Source: Candidatus Nitronereus thalassa
Lineage (GTDB): Bacteria > Nitrospirota > Nitrospiria > Nitrospirales > UBA8639
Direction: 5' to 3'
DNA: 64,000 bases
NCBI RefSeq assembly: GCF_032191465.1
Contig: NZ_JAQOUE010000001.1
Span: forward strand, 1,860,001-1,924,000
Part shown: in pieces, positions 2,603 to 26,826 of the stretch
Layout: every line of letters begins with the position of its first letter
Position numbering within the stretch: the stretch's first letter is position 1
Notes under the pieces: generated by a model
What the model was told of the DNA's origin: nothing
The model's input: only the letters and a program-made list of their open reading frames with translations
The model's database searches: none
Position numbers and translations under genes: made by a program

Positions 2603-5600
2603 TCACAACAGGCGAGAAGGCAACCCCACTAACTCTTCCTTCAATGCCGCCTCCGCCTCGGTAAACTCTTGACGCACAAGGGCGAGTTGATCCGGAATAG
2701 ATTCGATTTGCGCTTCGCGTCCCATTTTTTCTAATTCAGAACAGGCTTCTCCCAAACGCATGGTTCCGATATTTTTTCCGCTTCCTTTTAGCGTATGAGC
2801 CGCCCCGGCAAGCGCTTCGAAATTTCCTTCACTCAGGGCCTGTTGGATGTTATCAAGAAGCACACTCGATCGCTCCAAAAATTGATGGATCAAATCGGCA
2901 AGGAAACCCGAATCGTCAAGAGACAGATCTCGTAATTCACCGATCGTTGCTTCATCAAGCACCGACATCTCATCCAAAACTGGATCACGACGGGATGCCC
3001 GAGGGGACGCTGTGATACGAGGGACACCAGAGACTTCAGGCGGAGTCGTCATCTTCACAGGAATCCAAAGCTGTAACACTCGACTTAACTCTTCCAATGC
3101 GACCGGCTTGGAAATAAAATCATCCATTCCTGCCTTTAAACATTTTTCACGATCTCCTTTCATCGCATTCGCAGTCATGGCGATGATGGGCACGTGAAGC
3201 CTTGCTCGTCGCTCGTCGCTCGTCGCTCGTATCTCTTCAGACGCACCAGATATCTCTTGGTTTCCGAGCGACGATCCTCGAGCAACAAGCGACAATTCTT
3301 TTGTTCTTATCTGCCTCGTCGCTTCAAATCCATCCATTTCCGGCATTTGGCAATCCATTAACACCAAGTCATAAGAAGTCTGCAGTAATGCTTGAACGGC
3401 TTGTTCTCCGTTGTCCACCACATCTGCGGAGCATCCCAGTTTTTCTAACATCAGGACCGCCACTTTTTGATTGACCAGATTATCTTCCGCCAATAGAATT
3501 TTCATTTGCGACCGTCTCTCAACCTCATCCACACTGTACTGGGTAATCAGGGGTGAGTGTGGTGCCATACCTGGCGTTCCATCCGCACCGTCCTTTCCCA
3601 TTACCAAACACAGGGCTTTATAGAGCCGATCTTCATGCATGGGTTTTGTCAGGTAGGCAGCAAAGCCCATTTCTTGGATGGTATGCGCATCTCCCCGTTG
3701 ACCAAATGCCGTAAGCAACACCAGCTGGGGTGAGGGGCCTCCACATGCATCCTTTACCTGTTGCGCCAGATCCATATCCTGTATTTCTGTGCCATGAAGA
3801 TCACAGATCACAATATCGAATGGTTTGTGCTTGACGACGGCCAAACGAATTTTCGTCAAGGCCGAATCCATGGATTCGGCAACGACCACCTGCATGCCCC
3901 ACGCTTCCAGGTAATGAACCAACGCTTGTCGACTGGCGGCATGCTCACTCATACAACACACAGACAGCCCGGCTAAACTTTCTCGGACAATCCTAAGGTC
4001 AGAAGATCGCTCCTTGGACATTTGCAAAGGGAGGAAAAACCAAAATTGACTTCCGACCCCAGGCTCGCTCGAAAAATGAATGTCTCCTCCCATTAATTCC
4101 ACAAGCTGTCTTGAAATCGCCAACCCTAATCCGGTCCCCCCAAACTTTCGAGAGGTAGAACCATCGGCTTGGGTAAATGATTGGAATAAACGGCCATGAG
4201 CTTCAGGTGGAATCCCCACACCAGTGTCCGTGACATCAAATCGAACCACAACCCGCTCTTCCGATATCGAAGTCCCCTTCACTTGAATGACCACTTCCCC
4301 GTGATCCGTAAACTTCACGGCATTTCCGACGATATTCGTTAATACTTGCCGAATTCGACCGGGATCTCCCTTCAGGATTGTTGGAATATCGGGGGACACC
4401 AGTCCTACCAATTCCACTCCTTTCTCGTGGGCTTTTTCAGCCAGCAAATCCAGCACGTGGTTCATCGTCGACCGAACATCAAAGTCAATGACTTCAATAT
4501 CGAGTTTTCCCGCCTCGATTTTGGAGAAATCAAGAATGTCATTAATAATTGTCAACAACGCCCTCCCAGAAAATTGGACCGTTTCAGCCAATTCTCGCTG
4601 TCGAGCATCCAAGTTTGTATCCAAGAGCAACCCGTTCATGCCCATGACGCCATTCATGGGTGTCCGAATTTCATGACTCATGGTGGCCAAGAATTCAGAT
4701 TTCAGCCTGGCGGCCTCCAATGCCTGGTCACGAGCTTTTCCTAACTCAACATTCCGCAACTGAAGATGTCGAGCTGCTTCAGCCACTCGTTTTTGCGCTT
4801 GCCGTTTTTGCGCAAATTGCCCAATCTGTAGACCCCAAACCTCCATGATCTCCAGTAACTTCTCATCAGGCTCCTCGACAGACTGACTATAAAATTCGAT
4901 CACCCCGTACACTCTTCCCTCCGTATGAAAGGGAAAGGCAAATGCGCCGTGGAGATCCACGGCATGGGCCAATTGTGATCGAGGAAAATTGGAATCCTCC
5001 ACCACATCCTGAACCCAGGTAGGCTGGTTGTTCGCCCAGACCCTTCCGGGCAACCCCACACCGAGCGCAAACGTGGTAATCCGGGTTCGCTGAGAAAATT
5101 CAGTTAATGCGGCATCCCCTCCATCCCAGACCTCCACGCAATACAACACATTTTCTTCCTCATCGACTCGCCACATCGCGCCAAATTTCCATCCCAAAGT
5201 TTTACACACCATCTCCATCATTTGTGGTGCGGCCTCCCGAAGAGAGGGCGCTCCGGCCAACGCAATGGTAACCCCCCGTTGAATATTTAACCGTCGTTCA
5301 ATCGCTGCACGCTCTTCCAGTTCAGGACCAAATCCGCGAGCCACAGCCACGTATTCCCAGGCCAACCCACAGAACGGTACAAAATACGCCAGCACCTTGA
5401 ATCCATAGGCCAGACCCACTTGAGGTTCAAGGTCTGAAATGGAACCAAGAACCAAACCCTGCGCGGTCAGGTGAAAACCCATGCCAATAAAAAAGGCTTG
5501 GGCAAAGGGTCCCGATTTGATTGCACAACTTTTGAACCACCACATCACAACTCCAAGCACAAAGCCACACAATGGGATTAGTGCATAAGGACGAGTCAGC

Positions 5601-6073
5601 ACCGCATTGGGGAAGATGAGCTCAGGCCGTGGATCGCCTGATGCCATCCATCCATACACTCCATACCCAATCAGGCCCAACACCGCACTCGAACCAAGCA
5701 AGGCGAGGATTTTTTCGGAAAACGTATTCAGAAATGGTGTGACGAGAACACCCACCCCGATCAACAACACCAGTGCCTCCACACCACGAGAAATCGTCCA
5801 TGCCACTTGAGTCGCCCATTCAGGGTCCAAGCGGGCATCAATCCAAGATGCACCGACAAACGCAAGAAAAACGCTCCAAGTGGCAGCCACACACAAAGTG
5901 GCACTAAGAAGAGGTGCGGCTGGTTCGCGTGTAATTGTGAAATGCAGCACAGAAAACGCCACAGTAAAAAACGCGATAACAAAAATCGCCCAATCAAAAA
6001 GCATCAACCAGGTATTGGTCATGACCATTTCAGAAAGTGTAAGAGGAAGGACAAAAGCGTCTTGCGCGAACAC
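2603..6073 (-). CDS. Hybrid sensor histidine kinase (7TM-GAF-HisKA-HATPase-REC-REC-HPt)
   Basis: About seven hydrophobic helices (residues 20-260) precede a GAF domain (about 275-430) and a short coiled coil. The HisKA motif ATMSHEIRTPMNG places the phospho-acceptor His near residue 467. An HATPase domain follows (DTGVGIPP, GGTGLGLAIS). The first receiver (about 700-825) is divergent. The second (about 855-1000) is canonical, with ILLAEDN, LVLMDCQMPEMDG and SKPV. A C-terminal HPt domain has AAHTLKGSG near residue 1089. The loop before the VPIIAMTANA strand of the second receiver is about 26 residues longer than in the kinase at 30.5 kb, and the extra DNA is a heptamer repeat element. The start may be at 6028 or 6022 rather than 6073. 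It neighbours a paralogous kinase. Confidence 0.9.
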   Translation of the reverse strand: MFAQDAFVLPLTLSEMVMTNTWLMLFDWAIFVIAFFTVAFSVLHFTITREPAAPLLSATLCVAATWSVFLAFVGASWIDARLDPEWATQVAWTISRGVEALVLLIGVGVLVTPFLNTFSEKILALLGSSAVLGLIGYGVYGWMASGDPRPELIFPNAVLTRPYALIPLCGFVLGVVMWWFKSCAIKSGPFAQAFFIGMGFHLTAQGLVLGSISDLEPQVGLAYGFKVLAYFVPFCGLAWEYVAVARGFGPELEERAAIERRLNIQRGVTIALAGAPSLREAAPQMMEMVCKTLGWKFGAMWRVDEEENVLYCVEVWDGGDAALTEFSQRTRITTFALGVGLPGRVWANNQPTWVQDVVEDSNFPRSQLAHAVDLHGAFAFPFHTEGRVYGVIEFYSQSVEEPDEKLLEIMEVWGLQIGQFAQKRQAQKRVAEAARHLQLRNVELGKARDQALEAARLKSEFLATMSHEIRTPMNGVMGMNGLLLDTNLDARQRELAETVQFSGRALLTIINDILDFSKIEAGKLDIEVIDFDVRSTMNHVLDLLAEKAHEKGVELVGLVSPDIPTILKGDPGRIRQVLTNIVGNAVKFTDHGEVVIQVKGTSISEERVVVRFDVTDTGVGIPPEAHGRLFQSFTQADGSTSRKFGGTGLGLAISRQLVELMGGDIHFSSEPGVGSQFWFFLPLQMSKERSSDLRIVRESLAGLSVCCMSEHAASRQALVHYLEAWGMQVVVAESMDSALTKIRLAVVKHKPFDIVICDLHGTEIQDMDLAQQVKDACGGPSPQLVLLTAFGQRGDAHTIQEMGFAAYLTKPMHEDRLYKALCLVMGKDGADGTPGMAPHSPLITQYSVDEVERRSQMKILLAEDNLVNQKVAVLMLEKLGCSADVVDNGEQAVQALLQTSYDLVLMDCQMPEMDGFEATRQIRTKELSLVARGSSLGNQEISGASEEIRATSDERRARLHVPIIAMTANAMKGDREKCLKAGMDDFISKPVALEELSRVLQLWIPVKMTTPPEVSGVPRITASPRASRRDPVLDEMSVLDEATIGELRDLSLDDSGFLADLIHQFLERSSVLLDNIQQALSEGNFEALAGAAHTLKGSGKNIGTMRLGEACSELEKMGREAQIESIPDQLALVRQEFTEAEAALKEELVGLPSRLL
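3203..3293. repeat. Heptamer-armed inverted repeat inside a receiver-domain codon stretch
   Basis: On the plus strand three CGTCGCT words and one CGTATCT (3207-3234) lead into a core containing CACCAGATATCTCTTGG. The core is followed by the complementary words CGAGCGA, CGATCCT, CGAGCAA and CAAGCGA (3265-3292). The arms can pair, so this is a hairpin with 7-nt periodic arms. It is read in frame by the kinase on the minus strand without a stop. Its core is nearly identical to that of the copy at 6.8 kb. Confidence 0.8.
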
Positions 6074-11198: not shown

Positions 11199-12383
11199 TC
11201 AGGCCGCTTCTAATCGAATAATTCGTTCGAGCACCTTTTTTCGGGCAGCCTGGTAGGGTGGTTGGCCTTCAGTCATGTTGAGAAAATTCTGGTAATGTTG
11301 AACAGCCACCCCAACCTGGCCTTGCGCTTCAAGAGAATAGGCTAAATTTAACTGGACCTCCGGTAAATCAGGTGCAATCATTTCTGCTTGCCGTAGCGCT
11401 TCGACAGCCTCCCCATAGAGCCCGCGCTGCTGACTCACCAAGGCCCGTTGCACCCACAAATGTGGGATGGCGGCGTTTCGCGACAACCCTTCCAAAAAGG
11501 CTTCTTCCGCTTCTTCAAATTGTTCCAGCCCCAGATAGGCGGTTCCCAACCAAAACCATGGTTCCCACGTTTCCGGTGGCGTCACGAAGAGCGGTTTGAG
11601 GAGGGTCATGGCATGACCATACCGACGTTTTTGTATCAGATATTTAGCCTGAATCAATTTGGCTTCCGTCGGCGTGGACGTATGGATCCTTGGTTTGCCC
11701 GAGGCCTTCACAGATTTTGATGGTGTGACTTCAGAGGAAGGCTCAGACAACGGTGTCTCCCCAATGGAAGGGGGTTGCAAAACTTCTGACGATATCGCTT
11801 CCTTTTTCTGAGTTTCCTTGGGCAAAGACTTGGGCGTGCTCGCAATTTCTTTCTTCTCGCGCGGGGCCTCCTTGACGACCTCCATCGGTTTCGGTGGAAG
11901 GCTGGCTACTTCTTCGGACTCGATTGGTTGAGCCTCTTGCGTTGAGATCTCAGGGCTGGCTGTTTCGGAACTCGCTGCATCCCGCGACTCCGAATTCGCA
12001 TCAGACACTTGCCCTTCTGTAGCTGTGACGTCAGCCTCCTTGGCTACTTGGGGAGAAGCAGCACTTTCCTCAAGAGGCGGCGGGCTTACCGGCTTCGGAA
12101 TCACTTCTTGATCTGGACTGACTCTCGCCACCTCAGGCATGAGAGTCAGCCCCCAGAGATAGGCCCCTACGCCGACGGAGACCACCCCAACAATAATGAG
12201 GGACCATCGCAGAATATTTCGAATGGTTTTTGATGAGGTCTGGGGAGAAAAAAAATTGGGTTTGGAAGCATTGGAAGCAGGCGAGGAAGGATTTCCCTCG
12301 GTCTTGGTTGCGGGCTCAACACTCCCTGAAGGACGAGCCCGCTCAGCCTGTATTCGATTCAACGCATCGGTGACAATACTCAT
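11199..12383 (-). CDS. TPR protein of the pilus locus (MshN/GspB-like architecture)
   Basis: A bitopic inner-membrane protein of 394 residues. The N-terminus MSIVTDALNRIQAER is the motif found at the start of MshN/GspB-type proteins. A single transmembrane helix follows near residues 60-80 (LIIVGVVSVGVGAYLWGL). Then comes a long Pro/Ser/Glu-rich linker and a C-terminal TPR block from about residue 260 (AKYLIQKRRYGHAMTLLKPL, WFWLGTAYLGLEQFEEAEEA). In MSHA systems MshN helps assemble the inner-membrane platform. The longer frame from a TTG at 12425 would add 14 residues encoded by the repeat element, so I took the ATG. That ATG has no Shine-Dalgarno because the repeat ends 5 nt upstream of it. 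Confidence 0.75.
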   Translation of the reverse strand: MSIVTDALNRIQAERARPSGSVEPATKTEGNPSSPASNASKPNFFSPQTSSKTIRNILRWSLIIVGVVSVGVGAYLWGLTLMPEVARVSPDQEVIPKPVSPPPLEESAASPQVAKEADVTATEGQVSDANSESRDAASSETASPEISTQEAQPIESEEVASLPPKPMEVVKEAPREKKEIASTPKSLPKETQKKEAISSEVLQPPSIGETPLSEPSSEVTPSKSVKASGKPRIHTSTPTEAKLIQAKYLIQKRRYGHAMTLLKPLFVTPPETWEPWFWLGTAYLGLEQFEEAEEAFLEGLSRNAAIPHLWVQRALVSQQRGLYGEAVEALRQAEMIAPDLPEVQLNLAYSLEAQGQVGVAVQHYQNFLNMTEGQPPYQAARKKVLERIIRLEAA

Positions 12384-12387
12384 GATT

Positions 12388-12490
12388 TGTATTTCGTCGT
12401 TCGTATCTCGTCTTGCGTGAAGCAATTCACGTCGTGCGCATTCCGATTTATATGTTTTTACGAGATACGTTTCACGAAATACGAGATACG
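12388..12490. repeat. Heptamer inverted repeat between the ExeA-like and TPR genes
   Basis: In 7-nt register on the plus strand: TGTATTT, CGTCGTT, CGTATCT, CGTCTTG, CGTGAAG, CAATTCA, CGTCGTG (12388-12436). The opposite arm reads ACGAGAT, ACGTTTC, ACGAAAT, ACGAGAT (12460-12487). It contains the CGTGAAG punctuation word seen in the larger arrays. It fills almost the whole gap between the upstream stop and the downstream start, so it occupies the ribosome-binding region of the TPR gene. Confidence 0.75.
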
Positions 12491-12498
12491 TTTTTTTC

Positions 12499-13326
12499 TT
12501 AATTCATTCCGGCAATTTCCCGTTTCGCCCGCCAGAGCATGAACGCATTCACGTCAAACCGATGATTGGCATAGGCCGCTAGTAGGGCGCGGTCACAGAG
12601 TTGGTTGATGCGGCGAGGCACGCCGCCGGTGATGTAATGCGCAAGCATCATGGCCCGATGCGGAAATTGAAACCGCGCATGTTTGCCGGCCCTATTGAGC
12701 CGATGCTGGATATACTGCATGGTGTCATGCCATTCAAAGGGCATCAGTCGAAACCGGACACTGATGCGCTGAGACAGGGGACGCAATACCCGATTCGCCA
12801 ATGTGCGTTCCAATTCAGGCTGCCCCACAAACAACAAACACATCAGTTTTTCTTTTTCCGTATCCAAGTTTGACAACAACCGGAGTCCTTCCAAAACTTT
12901 GGGGCTTAATCGGTGCGCCTCATCTACCAAGACGGCCACCCGCTCTCCACTTTCGGCGAGCTTGAGCAACACTTCCGGCAACACTCGCTGCAACCCCCCA
13001 ATGCTGCGATCTTCCGGCACCAGGCCGGTGAGGTCTTGGTAGATGGAGGTTAACAAATCCGCATAGGATTGGTCGGGATTCAACAGATAGGCAAACCGCA
13101 CGCCTTCCGGCGGATGACGCAACAGGTACCGACAGAGCAAGGTTTTGCCAACACCGACTTCCCCCGTCAGCATGGTCAGCCCCCCACTGGCGACACCATA
13201 TCGAAGGTGATCGAGGGCTTCTTTATGATGCTGACTCGGAAAGAAGTAATCGGTATCCGGCGTGATGCGAAACGGCGATTCTTCAAACCCTAATTGTTCG
13301 TAGCATAGTTGAAGGTCAGAAGTCAT
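12499..13326 (-). CDS. ExeA/MshM-like AAA+ ATPase of the pilus locus
   Basis: A 275-residue cytoplasmic ATPase. It opens with the family motif LGFEESPFRITPDTDYFF, then Walker A GEVGVGKT (about residue 55), Walker B VAVLVDEAH, and a C-terminal region with GGVPRRINQLCDRALLAAY. ExeA, GspA and MshM proteins of this type help install the secretin or pilus machine through the peptidoglycan, although this copy has no periplasmic peptidoglycan-binding domain. It starts 2 bp after the secretin stop, so the two are co-transcribed and probably coupled. Confidence 0.85.
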   Translation of the reverse strand: MTSDLQLCYEQLGFEESPFRITPDTDYFFPSQHHKEALDHLRYGVASGGLTMLTGEVGVGKTLLCRYLLRHPPEGVRFAYLLNPDQSYADLLTSIYQDLTGLVPEDRSIGGLQRVLPEVLLKLAESGERVAVLVDEAHRLSPKVLEGLRLLSNLDTEKEKLMCLLFVGQPELERTLANRVLRPLSQRISVRFRLMPFEWHDTMQYIQHRLNRAGKHARFQFPHRAMMLAHYITGGVPRRINQLCDRALLAAYANHRFDVNAFMLWRAKREIAGMN

Positions 13327-20331: not shown

Positions 20332-22251
20332 TCATTCCGCCAAGGTGACAGCAGCAATATTTTCCTGGGTGGTGTTTAAGCCAACATCATTACCCTCCAA
20401 GACGATAGAGGCTAAGGCCGTGGTGTTGCCCGTTATCCCCATGGTGGTGGTCACGGCATTCAAGGCAAAAATATCATGGTATTGCACAGAAATAGGAACC
20501 GTCCCGACTGTCGCATCATGCCAATCCAATGTAGCGAGGATCGTGCCCGGCAACAACACCCGTCCTCCCATTGTCGTGGTATCCTCTACCAGGTAAACAC
20601 CGTAGACATATCGATTATTGTCAATATTAATATCCGACCCTTCTAGTAAAATAGCTGTGGTTCCCGAAGTGCTTCCAGCACCCACACTGGTCGGGACATA
20701 ATGGTGAATATCATTCCTTCCGGTTTTGGAAGAAGCGTAAAGAAAAGTCCCGGCAGGCAATATTACATCTCCTACAAGCGTGTTTTTTTCCACGACGGAA
20801 ATACCCGAAATTATCCCGTTAATGGGATTTTCCAATAACATATAAAAGGTACCTGAAGAATAGTCACCCGGTGTCGCTGGCCGGAAGACAAACACATCCT
20901 TCCACGTCACGCTCAAGGTATTGAGACTGGTCAAGGTGGCATTAAACTCTGTAGAGAGGAGAAGGTCTCCCGGTAATAAATCAAATGTGGTGGTGGTCCC
21001 TACAGTCACCCCAGTTTTTACATAATCAACGGCATCGATTTGTAGGCCCCCACTGGAAAATGTTCTAAAATTTTGCAATGAAGAAAACGTACCATTGGTA
21101 GTCCCTGGCTCCAATGCTAAATTCGGGTCGGAAAAACGAAGAACATCAGCATTCGTCCAAGAATCTAGCCCCGGAGCGCCGCTTGGGGAACCCACATCTC
21201 CGAAGGTCGCGAGCAGAATGCCGCCAAGACCGCTTCCGCATCCGCTGACTCCACCCGAACAGGCTTGAACTAAGATGGGGCCGCTTCGCCATTGCACTCC
21301 CGCCGGGCGGCAAGGGTTAAAATGATGAGTGGTATCTTCATTCGCAATGAATTGAATTTCCGGCACCGCATAAGGTATAGCTTCATCCACTCCAACTCGT
21401 GTGCCAATAAGATGATACCGGAGGTGACTGAGGGTAATGCCACAGCCGGAATTGGTGACGGTCCCGTCAATACTGTAACTCCCCCCTGTGGTATCGGCCA
21501 GCAAATTGACGAGCCGGAACAAATGGCCCACGCTGCCGCGTTCGATGAATAGATCCGGGGTCGAAGTTTCATTGGTATTCCACCATGCATCAAACTCCGT
21601 GGCGTTGGTAATGGTCGGGGCTGCATCCGCATTCAAATTTGAGATGAGGAGATATCGCGTATCCGGAATTTCGTTTTCCGCAATCCCTGCGGCATTGCTG
21701 AACGCCGCCATGGTGGGATGCAAGACGTAATACCGAGGAAAGCCTCGATCGTTTTGCAACAATCGCGTGTCCCCCATTTGCAGATATTTCGGACTCAATG
21801 CAGACAGATCTGCCGGCCAGGCATGGGTCTCCTGCAAAGACAATTCAATGGCTTGTGCAATAGCCTGAAGGTTGCTCTTCTCCGCAGTCCTTGTGGCGTC
21901 ATCGAGTCGGTTGATGAAATTGGGAAGGATGATTGCAGCAAGAATGCCAACGACGGCTAATACGCCGACAACTTCGAGGAGGGAGAAACCGTGGGATGAT
22001 CGTAGCTCGTATTTCGTATCTCGTATCTCGTGAAGAAACAGACGTCGCTCGTCGCTCGTCGCTGGTCGCTCGGGAGACGTATCTCGTATTTCGTCGCTCG
22101 TATTTCGTGAACATAAAGATATCGATGGTCCTCCGGAAAGAGTATTTCGTATCTCGTATTTCGTATTTCGTGAAGAAACAGACGTCGCTTGTCGCTCGTG
22201 AAGAGTATCTCGTATTTCGTATCTCGTATTTCGTGTCTTGGTGAGTCTCAT
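20332..22251 (-). CDS. Large prepilin-like protein 1 with repeat-encoded leader
   Basis: The class III prepilin signature HG|FSLLEVVGVLAVVGILAAII follows an 88-residue leader counted from the first ATG. Leaders are normally 6-25 residues. The whole leader is read from heptamer repeats (RNTKYEI- and TSDERR-type peptides), and no ATG, GTG or TTG lies between the array and the cleavage site. The globular part has a domain shared with the next two prepilins (WWNTNETSTPDL...) and a C-terminal half with recurring 'GSD/GND' strands (GTTAILLEGSDINI, ASIVLEGNDVGL). Probably a minor pilin or tip adhesin of the MSHA-like pilus. The true start is unknown and the gene may be disrupted. Confidence 0.7.
   Translation of the reverse strand: MRLTKTRNTRYEIRDTLHERQATSVSSRNTKYEIRNTLSGGPSISLCSRNTSDEIRDTSPERPATSDERRLFLHEIRDTKYELRSSHGFSLLEVVGVLAVVGILAAIILPNFINRLDDATRTAEKSNLQAIAQAIELSLQETHAWPADLSALSPKYLQMGDTRLLQNDRGFPRYYVLHPTMAAFSNAAGIAENEIPDTRYLLISNLNADAAPTITNATEFDAWWNTNETSTPDLFIERGSVGHLFRLVNLLADTTGGSYSIDGTVTNSGCGITLSHLRYHLIGTRVGVDEAIPYAVPEIQFIANEDTTHHFNPCRPAGVQWRSGPILVQACSGGVSGCGSGLGGILLATFGDVGSPSGAPGLDSWTNADVLRFSDPNLALEPGTTNGTFSSLQNFRTFSSGGLQIDAVDYVKTGVTVGTTTTFDLLPGDLLLSTEFNATLTSLNTLSVTWKDVFVFRPATPGDYSSGTFYMLLENPINGIISGISVVEKNTLVGDVILPAGTFLYASSKTGRNDIHHYVPTSVGAGSTSGTTAILLEGSDINIDNNRYVYGVYLVEDTTTMGGRVLLPGTILATLDWHDATVGTVPISVQYHDIFALNAVTTTMGITGNTTALASIVLEGNDVGLNTTQENIAAVTLAE
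22001..22238. repeat. Heptamer array of 34 consecutive units
   Basis: 238 bp divide exactly into 34 seven-base units without a slip. Most begin with CGT (CGTATTT, CGTATCT, CGTCGCT). Even the unlike units (CGGGAGA, ATAAAGA, TATCGAT, GGTCCTC, CGGAAAG) hold the register. CGTGAAG followed by AAACAGA occurs twice (22029 and 22169), each time leading into CGTCGCT words. One base out of register, further CGTTGCT, AGTCGCT and GGTTATC units continue to about 22274. All clear words point the same way. The array covers the 5' part of the first large prepilin gene. Confidence 0.9.
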
Positions 22252-22354
22252 TTCGTTGCTAGTCGCTGGTTATCGGTTGATGGGAATGCGTAAGGCGTAC
22301 CCCCGCATAGCCACCTTCGTATTTCGTACCTTGCTGGTATGATGGCGACGTGTC

Positions 22355-24271
22355 CTATTCACTTAAATACATGCCAATGCCGTTTAGGTCGATCCCATCC
22401 AAACTCACATCCGACCCATCAAAGAACAAATAAGCGTTCGCTTCGGACTGAAAGCTCAGCAGGCCAAGTTCGGTCTTTGTCACATCCAAAATGAAAATAT
22501 CTTCCCTCTCTGTTGCGATTGAATTATCACCAACCGACGAGTCATCAGCGTCTAAAGTGACGAGAATTTGTCCAGCCAAGAGAGTGGTGCCTCCAATGGT
22601 CCTCTCTGATTCAATGAGTTCGATGCCGGTAATGTCCTGACTCAAATTAAAATCACTGCCATCGAGGAGAAGTTGCGTCGTCCCGACCGTCAAGGTGCCC
22701 ATCCTTAACGGGGTAAAGAGATAAAGATCCTCACTTGTTTCACTCAACAGCAATGTGCCGGCCTGCAGCGTGGTATCACCCACGAATGTATCCTGTTCGA
22801 CCAGAGAAACTCCCTGAGTCGAACCAAACCCAACATCGCTCGCATCAAAAAACATGATAAACGTTCCCGACGAATAATCTCCCGGTTGATCCGGACGGAA
22901 AATAAATACATCGTTATCATCGACCGAGAGGCTATTCGTGCTGTTCAACGTTTCATCCCCTTGGGTAGAAAGCAGCAAATCCCCTCTATAGAGATCGAGT
23001 GTGATGAGGGAACCCACAGTCAGATTTCTTGACACATAATGAATTGCATCGATATCGGCCTGGCCCGTAAAATTTTCGAGTTTAAAGATGGCACCATATT
23101 GACCTGCCGTGGTGCCACCCGGCGGCGAGGTCTCAAAACTCAGATTCGGATTGTCAAAGGAAACAATTTCGTCCTCACCCCAGCTCCCGATTTCCGGTAT
23201 CCCGCTCGTATCACTCGCAGTGGTCAGCCACAACACTTCACATGGCGCTGCTGGAAGCGGTGCAACAACCCATCGATCACCGATGGACCGGCACGGATCA
23301 AATTGATAGGACACATTGGTGGTGAGGGCGAACTCAATTTCCGGAGTGCCATAGGGAGTGTCTTCATCCAACGACACCACCGTTCCGGCCACATGGTACT
23401 GATTGTAATCCGTCAGCGTGCCTCCGCTTGAATCGGTCGTGGTTCCATCAATTTGGTAACTCGCGCCGGGACCAAGAAACGTCAAGTTCACCTGGTGAAA
23501 GAGGCTGGCCAGATTGCCGCGATAAATTTTAAGATCGGGCGTGGCGGTTTCATCAGTGGCCCACCAGGTTTCAAACTCGGTGGCGTTCGTGATGGTCGGC
23601 GCGGCATCTTGGCTTAAGTTTGAAACAAGCAAAAAGCGAAGCGCGATCAGATCACTTGCCGCGAGTCCCGCTCCGTTGTTAAAGGTGGCCGTGGTCGGAT
23701 GAGCCGCATAATACCGGGGGAACCCGCGAGGATTCTGCAACAACTGGGCACTATCCAATGGCACATACTCCGGACTGTGCGCGGCCAGGGTTGGTGCCCA
23801 TGCGCGATTGCGGCGTAAGTAAAGTTCGGTGCCCTCCGCGATGCCACTTAGACTCTGTAATTCCTGATCCGTGCTGAGGCGATCGTTGAGCGACACCAAA
23901 TTCGGCGCAAACACCGCCGCCAAAATCGTCATCACCGCAAGAATACCGACCATCGCGAGGAGGGTGAAACCGGGGGAAGATCGTATCTCGTATTTCGTAT
24001 CTCGTATTTCGTTATTTGGGAAGAAAGGACAACATTCGTGTTTCGTATTTCGTATTTCGTATTTCTTTAAAGGATAAAGATGAGGGACAAAAGACGAAAG
24101 AAGTATCTTCTTTGCGAGATACGAAATACGAGATACGAGATACGTCAGTTTCTTCACGAAATACGAGATACGAGATACGAACGACGTTCTTTTTATCGCG
24201 AGATACGAGCGACGAGCGACGAGCGACGTTTGTTCTCCCATCACGAACATTGCTGTCCTTGAACCAGCCAT
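22355..24271 (-). CDS. Large prepilin-like protein 2, leader repeat-encoded, lacks Glu5
   Basis: The prepilin N-helix SPG|FTLLAMVGILAVMTILAAVF is preceded by about 101 residues translated from heptamer arrays in both orientations (SRISYFV-type and KYEIRNT-type peptides). No usual start codon lies between the array and the cleavage site. Position +5 after the cleavage is Ala instead of the Glu that nearly all pilins need for subunit docking; such a change is seen in GspK-like tip subunits. The globular part is paralogous to its neighbours (ATDETATPDLKIYRGNLA). A C-terminal half has repeated FDGSDV strands (MFFDASDVGF, LLLDGSDFNL, LFFDGSDVSL). It overlaps the 3' end of prepilin 3 as drawn; the real start is unknown. 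Confidence 0.65.
   Translation of the reverse strand: MAGSRTAMFVMGEQTSLVARRSYLAIKRTSFVSRISYFVKKLTYLVSRISYLAKKILLSSFVPHLYPLKKYEIRNTKHECCPFFPNNEIRDTKYEIRSSPGFTLLAMVGILAVMTILAAVFAPNLVSLNDRLSTDQELQSLSGIAEGTELYLRRNRAWAPTLAAHSPEYVPLDSAQLLQNPRGFPRYYAAHPTTATFNNGAGLAASDLIALRFLLVSNLSQDAAPTITNATEFETWWATDETATPDLKIYRGNLASLFHQVNLTFLGPGASYQIDGTTTDSSGGTLTDYNQYHVAGTVVSLDEDTPYGTPEIEFALTTNVSYQFDPCRSIGDRWVVAPLPAAPCEVLWLTTASDTSGIPEIGSWGEDEIVSFDNPNLSFETSPPGGTTAGQYGAIFKLENFTGQADIDAIHYVSRNLTVGSLITLDLYRGDLLLSTQGDETLNSTNSLSVDDNDVFIFRPDQPGDYSSGTFIMFFDASDVGFGSTQGVSLVEQDTFVGDTTLQAGTLLLSETSEDLYLFTPLRMGTLTVGTTQLLLDGSDFNLSQDITGIELIESERTIGGTTLLAGQILVTLDADDSSVGDNSIATEREDIFILDVTKTELGLLSFQSEANAYLFFDGSDVSLDGIDLNGIGMYLSE
23982..24232. 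repeat. Large heptamer inverted repeat at a prepilin gene junction
   Basis: The left arm (23982-24064) has CGTATCT/CGTATTT words with one register slip. The right arm (24114-24232) is 17 units in perfect register in the opposite orientation (GCGAGAT, ACGAAAT, ACGAGAT, ACGTCAG, TTTCTTC ... ACGAGCG, ACGTTTG). The 49-bp centre holds ordinary sequence. The reverse complement of the right arm contains CGTGAAG-AAACTGA, the same punctuation as other arrays. It covers the leader region of prepilin 2 up to the stop of prepilin 3. Confidence 0.88.
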
Positions 24272-25161
24272 TTCGGGGTTCCCTGACAGTTAGGGTCAAA
24301 CTGATACCCGGCGTCCATCGTCAAGTTCAACTCGACTTCCGGAGTGGAGTAGGAATCACTCGTATCCAGCTTTACCGGAGTGCCCACTACATGGTAGCGG
24401 TTGTGAAGCGCCAGGGTTTGATTGCCGGGAGTACCGGTCGAGGTTCCGTCGATCTGGTAACTTCCACCCGGGCCAACTGGGCTCAGGCTCACCAAATGAA
24501 ACATATTGCCTAAATGCCCGCGATAAATTTTCAGATTCGGCGTGGAGGTTTCATCCGTATTCCACCAGGCATTAAATTGTGTGGCATTGGCAATCGTAGG
24601 ACTGGCATTCGCACTGATATCTGAAATCAGCAAAAACCGCATATCCGGCAACGCACTTTCAGCGAGACCGGTGGCATTGGAAAAACCTGCGGTGGTGGGA
24701 TGGGCAAAATAGTACCGGGAATACCCTCGGCTATTTTGAAGTAGCTGGGCCGAGCCAAAAGACACATATTTAGGACTGAGGGCCGCAAGGTTGGGAGGCC
24801 AGGTTCGGTTTTCCCGAAAATACACCTTCACCCCTTCGGCTATGGCCTGGAGGTTTTTGGTTTCCTCGGTTTGTTCGGCACGGTCAAAGACATCTATGAC
24901 ATTGGGAATCGCAATCGCCGCCAGCGTCGCCATAATCGCCAACACCCCGATGACTTCGATGAGGGTGAAACCGGCGGCGTTAAGCGCCGCGCATCTCGTA
25001 TTGCGTATTTCGTATTTCGTATTTCGTGAAGAGAAAAACGTCTCTCGTATCTGGGGAGAAGTATCTTGTATCTTGTATCTCGTATCTCGTGAAGAAAAGA
25101 ACGTATCTTGTATCTCGTATTTCGTATCTCGTTTTTTCAGAAAAGATGCTTGAAAAGTCAT
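24241..25161 (-). CDS. Large prepilin-like protein 3 (short form), repeat-encoded leader
   Basis: 306 residues. The signature NAAG|FTLIEVIGVLAIMATLAAI has the normal Glu5. The leader from the first ATG is 64 residues, of which about 45 come from the 20-unit heptamer array. The ATG itself lies outside the array. The globular domain is paralogous to prepilins 1 and 2 (NTDETSTPNLKIYRGHLG, HNRYHVVGTPVKLD) but ends at the Cys-containing tail without the extra C-terminal half. The three genes probably arose by tandem duplication. No Shine-Dalgarno precedes the ATG, so an alternative start or a disrupted gene remains possible. Confidence 0.7.
   Translation of the reverse strand: MTFQASFLKKRDTKYEIQDTFFSSRDTRYKIQDTSPQIRETFFSSRNTKYEIRNTRCAALNAAGFTLIEVIGVLAIMATLAAIAIPNVIDVFDRAEQTEETKNLQAIAEGVKVYFRENRTWPPNLAALSPKYVSFGSAQLLQNSRGYSRYYFAHPTTAGFSNATGLAESALPDMRFLLISDISANASPTIANATQFNAWWNTDETSTPNLKIYRGHLGNMFHLVSLSPVGPGGSYQIDGTSTGTPGNQTLALHNRYHVVGTPVKLDTSDSYSTPEVELNLTMDAGYQFDPNCQGTPKWLVQGQQCS
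24997..25136. repeat. Heptamer array of 20 units, left flank of the four-helix gene
   Basis: 140 bp in perfect 7-nt register, plus orientation: CGTATTG, CGTATTT x3, CGTGAAG, AGAAAAA, CGTCTCT, CGTATCT, GGGGAGA, AGTATCT, TGTATCT x2, CGTATCT, CGTGAAG, AAAAGAA, CGTATCT, TGTATCT, CGTATTT, CGTATCT, CGTTTTT. The CGTGAAG plus A-rich punctuation occurs twice. It lies downstream of the four-helix-bundle gene and inside the leader region of prepilin 3. Confidence 0.9.
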
Positions 25162-25184
25162 GGGTCACGTTAAAATCTATTTGA

Positions 25185-25556
25185 TTAGGTAGATACGTTT
25201 ATCTTCTTTATAAGGCTTTTGAGCATTCGGGATTCATGGTCCAATTTTTCCAAAAGGTTTCCTTTGCCCCTACTTGGTAAAAATCCTAAATCACAACTCA
25301 ATTCCACTTGGGTTTCTAACTCGGCACAAGACCCAAGTGCCATGTACAAAAATTGCCGATATTCCTTGTTGTGAATTCGGATAAATCCTTCGGCGATATT
25401 CGACGGGATTGAAACCGCAGCGCGTCGCATTTGAGACACTAATCCATACATTTCTTCTTTGGGAAAACTCTTACTCGACTGATACACCTCCAAAGCAATT
25501 TCTTTTCCTAGTCTCCATACCTCAAGATCCCTAAAACTTTTTATCTTTGTTGCCAT
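25185..25556 (-). CDS. Four-helix-bundle protein (23S rRNA intervening-sequence protein / bAvd-like family)
   Basis: 123 residues, the usual length of the family (PF05635/TIGR02436). Motifs: IKSFRDLEVWRLGKEIALEVY, MRRAAVSIPSNIAEGF and LGSCAELETQVELS. Relatives are encoded in intervening sequences of some 23S rRNA genes and as stand-alone genes. The same fold serves as the Avd accessory protein of diversity-generating retroelements, where it forms basic pentamers that bind nucleic acid. No reverse transcriptase, variable repeat or rRNA is nearby. The gene interrupts a pilus operon between GspF-like and prepilin genes, has no Shine-Dalgarno, and is bracketed by heptamer arrays pointing in opposite directions. 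I infer that it belongs to the repeat element rather than to the pilus. Its role is unknown. Confidence 0.85.
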   Translation of the reverse strand: MATKIKSFRDLEVWRLGKEIALEVYQSSKSFPKEEMYGLVSQMRRAAVSIPSNIAEGFIRIHNKEYRQFLYMALGSCAELETQVELSCDLGFLPSRGKGNLLEKLDHESRMLKSLIKKINVST

Positions 25557-25570
25557 CAATCGTTTTTTTT

Positions 25571-25605
25571 ACGAAATACTAAATACGAGATACGAAATAC
25601 GTTCT
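25571..25605. repeat. Heptamer array of 5 units, right flank of the four-helix gene (inverted)
   Basis: ACGAAAT, ACTAAAT, ACGAGAT, ACGAAAT, ACGTTCT followed by a T-run. The words are the reverse complement of those on the left flank. ACGTTCTTTT mirrors the AAAAGAACGT junction in the left array. The array lies just upstream of the four-helix ATG and 12 bp past the GspF-like stop. Confidence 0.82.
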
Positions 25606-25617
25606 TTTTTAACGTTT

Positions 25618-26826
25618 TTATCTGATCCCTCCCACCAGGCTCATCATGGGGAGGAAGATCGACACCGCGACGAAGCCGAGGAGCACGATGAGTCCAACCG
25701 TGACCAGAGGTTCGACTAACCCAAAGACGCGCTTCATGCGGCGGGGAATTTCTTCGTTGTAATAATCCGAGACATTGGCCATGGTTTGGCCCAATCGCCC
25801 GGATGACTCACCCACCGTGACCATCTGCAACACCATGGGAGGAAAGACCGAATATCGACTTAAGCAGGCACTCAACGTCTTGCCTTCGGAGACTCCCTTT
25901 TCAGTTTCAATGAGAGCTTTTTCCACGACCCGATTTCCCACCAACGACTGGCACAGCTTAAGGCAGCGTAAAATCGGCACCCCCGAGCGAAACAACACTC
26001 CGAAATTCTGGGCGAAGCGCGAAATGACTAACATGCGAACGACTTCTCCAAAAATGGGGAGTTTGAGCTTCAAGGCATCGAGTTGGTATCCGACTTCCGG
26101 AGAATTTCGACCTAATAACACCACAATGGGAATCAGCAGGAGGGCGGTTCCCCAATACATCCAGGTCGCCACTAGCAAGTCACTCGCATGCATGATCACG
26201 ATGGTGGGAAGGGGTAACGGCACTTTGAGGCTGACCAAGACCGTTGAAAACCGAGGGATCACAAACGTAAACAGGAGGATCATAAACAGGAATAGGCCGC
26301 CCAATACTAACGAGGGATAGATGGTCGCCTGCCGGACATCACCAATCATCCGATCCACCCATTCCAAATACCGTCGAAGCTCCCCAAAGGTGTCGGCTAA
26401 GGTTCCGCTTTCTTCCCCGGCCTGCACCAAATGGGCCATTTCTTCAGGAAAATAGGATGGGTGTTCTTTGAGCGCTTCATGGAGGGGCACTCCCGTCTCG
26501 ATCCGCTTCCATATCGCGAGCATGACTTTTTTGAATTGAGGATCGGTCGCCTGGTCCGCAAAGCCTTTAATCGCCGGAGAGACCTGCACGCCCGCGGAGA
26601 GAAGACTGTTCATATGAATGCCAAAGACAATCAGCAATTGCCGCTTGGCACGATTAAACCGTGTCTTTTTTTGTGCTCCCGCACCTGTCTTACTTTCCTT
26701 CGCCTCGACCAACCACAGTCCATTCCCTTCCAGTTGTGATTGCAGGGCTTCCATATTCGACGCCGACAAGAAGCCCTCCACCGGCTGGCCTTGGGCATCG
26801 ACGGCGCGATAGGCGAATTTAACCAT
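25618..26826 (-). CDS. mshG: GspF/PilC-family inner-membrane platform protein (MshG-like)
   Basis: 402 residues with two T2SSF domains and three membrane segments: ATIYPSLVLGGLFLFMILLF (about 170-190), WMYWGTALLLIPIVVLLG, and a C-terminal helix LVTVGLIVLLGFVAVSIF. The N-terminus FAYRAVDAQGQPVEGFLSA is the usual GspF/PilC opening, and VPLHEALKEHP and EAGEESGTLADT-like segments are conserved. It forms the platform that couples ATPase movement to pilin assembly. Its ATG overlaps the GspE-like stop by 8 bp. The pilus operon is interrupted immediately downstream by the four-helix gene and its arrays. Confidence 0.88.
   Translation of the reverse strand: MVKFAYRAVDAQGQPVEGFLSASNMEALQSQLEGNGLWLVEAKESKTGAGAQKKTRFNRAKRQLLIVFGIHMNSLLSAGVQVSPAIKGFADQATDPQFKKVMLAIWKRIETGVPLHEALKEHPSYFPEEMAHLVQAGEESGTLADTFGELRRYLEWVDRMIGDVRQATIYPSLVLGGLFLFMILLFTFVIPRFSTVLVSLKVPLPLPTIVIMHASDLLVATWMYWGTALLLIPIVVLLGRNSPEVGYQLDALKLKLPIFGEVVRMLVISRFAQNFGVLFRSGVPILRCLKLCQSLVGNRVVEKALIETEKGVSEGKTLSACLSRYSVFPPMVLQMVTVGESSGRLGQTMANVSDYYNEEIPRRMKRVFGLVEPLVTVGLIVLLGFVAVSIFLPMMSLVGGIR

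Follow-up and report, generated by a model that had tools for sequence, protein, structure and literature searches.

Introduction

Rickettsia palindromic elements (RPEs) are palindromic repeats that lie in frame within coding genes, at sites that tolerate them (Ogata 2000, 2002, reviewed in PMC10969869). In Coxiella, the intervening sequence (IVS) of the 23S rRNA holds the S23p ORF in a stem-loop, and the neighbouring heptamers vary in number between strains (PMC4990558). Dispersed heptameric repeats have been described in Xanthomonas, Nostoc and Calothrix (PMC4692102), as have the TAACTGA repeats of Beggiatoaceae (PMC4679880). Borg tandem repeats occur in ORFs and have unit lengths divisible by three (PMC9879509). 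Long prepilin leaders are known from S. sanguinis, other monoderm T4aP and type IVb pilins (PMC6916266, PMC10191384).

The locus described here can be set beside each of these systems. As with RPEs, a palindromic repeat lies in frame in a coding gene, in this case as an insert in a receiver domain, which is a likeness of behaviour and not of sequence membership. RPEs form ~150-bp families with a conserved peptide, whereas here we found tandem heptamers of several sequences, some flanking an S23-family gene and several as putative leaders. As in the 23S IVS, an S23-family ORF lies in the loop of an inverted repeat with heptamers beside it, but the element stands in protein operons instead of rRNA, its arms are heptamer arrays, and copies lacking S23 exist. 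The arrays share with the dispersed heptamers a period of seven and a mostly intergenic position near gene ends; those repeats, however, have mostly been treated as regulatory or G-quadruplex sequences, while the present ones form inverted pairs, are tied to S23 and appear to be coding. Like other long-leader prepilins, those studied here have class III signal peptides well past 6–10 residues, but at 63–100 repeat-coded residues they exceed the quoted leader range of 6–51. Borg repeats, too, are DNA tandem repeats read as protein inside genes, and the Borg genes are functional; unlike in Borgs, the unit here is seven, so that the frame is kept only if units come in multiples of three. RPE-type inserts, S23 in inverted repeats, dispersed heptamers and long leaders are each already known, and their combination appears to be new: we found no paper in the open-access literature that joins in-frame palindromic elements, S23 inverted repeats, heptamers and long leaders.

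Prepilin genes of the filament operon

The window analysed here is a 64,000-nucleotide stretch of the genome of Candidatus Nitronereus thalassa, a Nitrospira-like bacterium from the sea; the genome comprises 4.0 Mb in two contigs. An operon-like run for a type IV filament machine occupies 13–30 kb of its minus strand, where HMM searches recognized a secretin, an ATPase with an MshEN domain, a GspF/PilC-like protein (25618..26826) and several prepilins. The secretin matched MshL best (TIGR02519, 237.2 bits), short of the NCBIfam cut-off of 250.2, and the pilus can therefore be called only MSHA-like. An Rfam scan of the window matched no family, rRNA included.

Three prepilin ORFs, all on the minus strand, come after the gspF-like gene: p1 (24241..25161), p2 (22355..24271) and p3 (20332..22251), with the codons of the cleavage glycine at 24970–24972, 23969–23971 and 21988–21990, respectively. 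The N_methyl model of Pfam (PF07963, cut-off 21.2) scored 22.4 bits in p1 and 22.5 bits in p3. The prepilin-like p2 fell below this cut-off; its motif is GFTLLA, with Ala in place of Glu5. Glu at +5 is missing from p2-type prepilins in all genomes seen, as in tip pseudopilins of the GspK kind. Both p2 and p3 have long beta-rich C-terminal parts, to which no family was assigned. The structural model of mature p1 (pLDDT 88) had type IV pilins and PulG as its top matches over residues 1–155 (Z 6.9), which gives moderate support to a predicted pilin fold because Z is below 8; matches to its C-terminal beta domain (residues 155–238) were weak and mixed.

The leaders that precede the cleavage glycine comprise 63 residues in p1 (24973–25161), 90–100 in p2 and 87 in p3 (21991–22251). 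For p2, the preferred start is ATG 24241 (90 residues), which overlaps the p1 TGA stop (TGATG) and has a Shine-Dalgarno sequence (SD); ATG 24271 is an alternative (100 residues). The ATGs of p1 and p3 have no SD. Most of the p1 leader is coded by a heptamer array, ACGARAT in gene sense (24996..25132), most of the p2 leader by an inverted pair of arrays in the p1–p2 spacer (23980..24230), and most of the p3 leader by arrays of a single orientation (22006..22234), all on the minus strand.

An earlier note on this DNA had reported three prepilin genes with array-coded leaders, and all three were recovered. Its statement that the leaders are nearly all array was too strong, as the heptamer-derived share is 54–67% by a period-7 criterion or 63–72% by similarity to the heptamer family. 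Its observation that no usual start separates array and cleavage site stands for all three genes: there is no ATG, GTG or TTG in this interval, and the in-frame GTG that p2 has 62 codons ahead of the glycine, without a counterpart in p1 or p3, is inside the array block. The 6–25 residues taken there as the normal leader length are too narrow a range, given the reviewed 6–51 (PMC6916266) and the 61–62 residues of array-free relatives.

With one mismatch allowed, the TCGTATYTCGTATY pattern has 33 matches in the window, where shuffles predict 0.08. Genome-wide counts were obtained by pattern searches. The exact 18-mer TCGTATYTCGTATYTCGT has 23 matches in the genome, 15 of them inside the 3.1-kb prepilin stretch, and a second heptamer family, CGTGAAG, was found at one site only in a search of the same genome. 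Units are mixed and interrupted, and the longest perfect run is 3.6 units. Folding of the p1–p2 spacer gives a long hairpin (−95 kcal/mol, z −8.5). Because the p3 leader gives none, we dropped the idea that hairpins play a role in all three leaders.

An S23 gene between inverted heptamer arms

Directly upstream of p1, between two heptamer arms, lies a gene of the S23/23S_rRNA_IVP four-helix-bundle family (25185..25559, minus strand), which scored 124 bits with Pfam PF05635 (cut-off 33.8) and 118 bits with TIGR02436 (cut-off 24). It is the sole S23 copy found in a search of the genome and sits outside any 23S rRNA gene. Its score against Avd of diversity-generating retroelements (NF033474, 18.8 bits) is below the cut-off of 80. 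The 3′ arm is the array that codes most of the p1 leader, and the 5′ arm (25574..25601, minus strand) reads TCGTATY in gene sense and is its inverted counterpart; the two pair in the fold of 24976–25615 (z −2.7, 20 shuffles). Arm, S23 gene and arm together take up the space from the gspF-like stop, which is the left edge of the element, to the p1 cleavage site. The arrays belong to inverted-repeat elements, whose arms they form; one of these heptamer elements has kept its S23/23S-rRNA-IVP gene. Our explanation differs from that of the earlier note, which had overlooked this gene and the inverted orientation of its arms; of the two alternatives given there, ours shares that of translated arrays.

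We scored the flanks of 53 S23 loci from the family and phylum against 20 shuffles. Inverted flank similarity exceeded that of any shuffle at 48 of the 53 loci, compared with 13 of 53 in direct orientation. Period-7 arrays made up 5.7% of near S23 flanks versus 0.34% of far flanks (17-fold enrichment); periods 8 and 9 were also raised, less than period 7. rRNA was absent from all 20 further S23 loci checked. The element upstream of p1 apparently arrived with its small S23-family gene, and the distribution of the S23-heptamer cassette, together with occupied and empty sites between species, suggests that it is mobile.

Some S23 loci show strong direct flank similarity (L201, score 108; L174, 86; L189, 74), perhaps from tandem duplications. 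In several g9 genomes (L137–L142, L146), S23 elements are flanked by a response-regulator gene on one side and a CheA-like gene on the other; there, S23 continues through the heptamer arm on its 3′ side and stops at the next start.

Junctions and leader lengths in relatives

A search of genome contigs with a pilin profile yielded 21 loci, all from Nitrospirota-type MAGs save one labelled Nitrospinota. The nearest named relatives sharing the locus were the Nitrospirales MAGs NPIRA01/02/04, OFTM51 and UBA8639. The single p1 protein as query against the genome contigs gave no match, whereas the profile query did.

In the element-free G004, 58 nt separate the gspF stop from the p1 glycine, consisting of TAA, one base, ATG and a 19-residue leader before the Gly codon; in G029 the distance is 127 nt and the leader 26 residues. 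By contrast, in G000, G015, G040, G041 and G013 this space is 404–658 nt and is filled by arm, S23 and arm right up to the cleavage site. Judging from these junctions, the element replaced the p1 start and leader and was not spliced into an intact leader.

In the g5 relatives, S23 copies stand ahead of p1 (G015 and G040; decayed in G041 and G013) and of p3 (G015), with heptamer arms that at times use another unit, e.g. TTCACGC or GCGACGA. In G013 and G041 the S23 gene upstream of p1 is frameshifted or decayed (L030 7994–8170; L095 6873–7020) while the arms persist, and the G041 remnant is in frame with p1. In g5, every p1 leader is in frame, with lengths of 38, 45, 62 and 82 residues. Those of G013 and G041 align without indels from a common ATG and then differ by 21 nt, or three heptamers. 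The idea in the earlier note that arrays act as leaders of repeat-dependent length is supported between species, with the pilin frame kept open. In G040 and G041, arrays or array remnants lie upstream of normal 12–16-residue leaders of p2 and p3, which means that arrays need not be coding.

In one g9 group, an ATG preceded by a conserved GGAGA-like stretch lies 31–46 codons before the glycine; the leader of this group often ends in heptamer-coded HASRLT, and two members have no nearer start. The other g9 group has no array, and its leader is constantly 62 residues (61 in one member) from a conserved ATG. For these array-free leaders of 61–62 residues, pN/pS was 0.66 in frame versus 1.17 and 0.89 in the other frames, with P 0.10 for the variable columns alone. 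Codon-position tests on leaders of ~39 residues gave no signal. As long leaders are predicted in both g9 groups, including the array-free one, they are common and ordinary in this pilin family. A g5 leader start, 'MxxECSxxSxKN', was rejected as a conserved leader: it is an out-of-frame reading of the conserved S23 tail, and only its frame relation to the pilin is evidence.

Reading frames through the arrays

A perfect heptamer array encodes one heptapeptide whichever frame is used, and ACGARAT/TCGTATY is stop-free on both strands, as are half of all heptamers, so that an open frame through an array proves little by itself. Interruptions in the arrays make a frame test possible. It was applied to those orthologues and paralogues, 17 in all, whose last 150 nt include 21 bp or more of array. 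The pilin frame was open for at least 40 codons in 14 of the 17, the other two frames in 4 and 5. All 13 informative genes had the pilin frame open (P 8e-5 if independent, an optimistic value because the orthologues are related); with the test limited to G000 plus g5, P was about 0.005. For G000 alone the test is weak, with p3 open in all three frames and p1 in two. The leaders read from the arrays are hydrophilic and net-basic (+5, +11 and +4).

The same heptamer element also occurs within a hybrid histidine kinase gene of the window (ORF 2603–6073), where an inverted pair (3197..3295, minus strand; hairpin z −3.8) adds 33 codons to the receiver domain and keeps the frame; in PDB 7c1j, the conserved blocks on its two sides are four residues apart. 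Through its reading frame, this insert shows repeat DNA translated inside an undoubted gene. In a second kinase of the same genome (L114 4012–4042), a loop of the ATPase domain contains SNEIRDTKDEIR in frame. For the prepilins, translation of the arms as leaders is the most likely reading. Since the repeats most likely encode long throw-away leaders, the genes look extended, not broken.

Proposed explanation and alternatives

We propose, as the probable though far from certain course of events, that heptamer inverted-repeat elements in spacers of the filament operon replaced starts and short leaders, that upstream starts now read the arms as leaders, and that the peptidase removes the repeat-coded residues. 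Ribosomes would start upstream of the arrays, at ATG 25161 for p1, ATG 24241 or 24271 for p2 and ATG 22251 for p3, the start at ATG 24241 being coupled to the p1 stop. The arm would be read as a hydrophilic, net-basic leader; the signal-anchor helix would do the targeting and insert as usual; and prepilin peptidase, as known prepilin biology suggests (PMC10191384), would cut off every repeat-coded residue. The leader may be a permissive site for elements, being a discarded segment that places few demands on length or sequence. The arrays would then be tolerated passengers of that segment, with selection on the pilin keeping the frame and leader length drifting with repeat number under this constraint.

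The weakest link of the upstream-start reading is the lack of an SD at the ATGs of p1 and p3, which speaks for untranslated arrays. Translation would then begin close to the glycine, either at a non-canonical codon such as ATA, ACG or CTG or at a site that escaped recognition, and the open frame would be a by-product of stop-free heptamers. Such arrays are indeed stop-free in all frames, and several relatives start 10–20 codons from the glycine. Nevertheless, all codons near the cleavage site lack an SD as well (best −3.0 kcal/mol), the other two frames are often closed where the pilin frame is open, and some relatives have a conserved distant start and no near one, all of which makes untranslated arrays unlikely. 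We give still less credence to a phase-variable switch, suggested in the earlier note and possible in principle, by which one heptamer gained or lost would turn a minor pilin on or off. A 7-nt change shifts the frame by one, leader length varies widely by species (38–82 codons in g5), and Coxiella S23 elements differ in heptamer number among strains (PMC4990558). The switch is nonetheless unsupported at this locus, as perfect runs do not exceed 3.6 units in arrays of mixed and interrupted units, all informative relatives are in frame instead of one third, and the one close comparison, G013 with G041, shows a three-unit change that keeps the frame.

The same note had also considered that the pilins were cut off from their starts, which would leave silent or decaying genes. 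The original start and leader, as in G004, are gone, S23 itself decays in G013 and G041, and spacer hairpins could block translation or serve as RNase III sites. However, the mature frames are intact at 242, 537 and 551 codons with ~50–60% identity to orthologues, and the array-leader state persists with intact genes in another genus, so that severed starts seem very improbable.

If the upstream-start reading is true, prepilin leaders of ~60–100 residues built from repeat elements still work, beyond the quoted 6–51, which shows the tolerance of prepilin targeting. It would also link orphan four-helix-bundle (S23) genes, dispersed heptamer arrays and in-frame palindromic inserts, and the S23 family would gain a testable context, namely binding or mobilising hairpins of its own flanking heptamers. 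Annotation that takes no account of such leaders would trim them or label the genes partial. A broader proposal, which we offer only tentatively, is that S23/23S-IVP genes outside rRNA are widespread mobile IVS-like cassettes ending in inverted heptamer arrays, and that S23-less derivatives spread in a MITE-like manner. Their usually stop-free arms might allow them to land in gene starts or loops and become coding, and here they may have re-leadered a minor-pilin set in at least two genera.

Heptamer arrays elsewhere in the window and genome

A further heptamer inverted pair (12400–12492) lies at the junction of ORFs 11199–12425 and 12499–13326 of the window, and the listed start of ORF 11199–12425 falls inside it. 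Elsewhere in the same genome, one array (L115 3973–4024) forms a small hairpin between convergent genes, and another (L116 3946–3979) lies directly ahead of a gene start.
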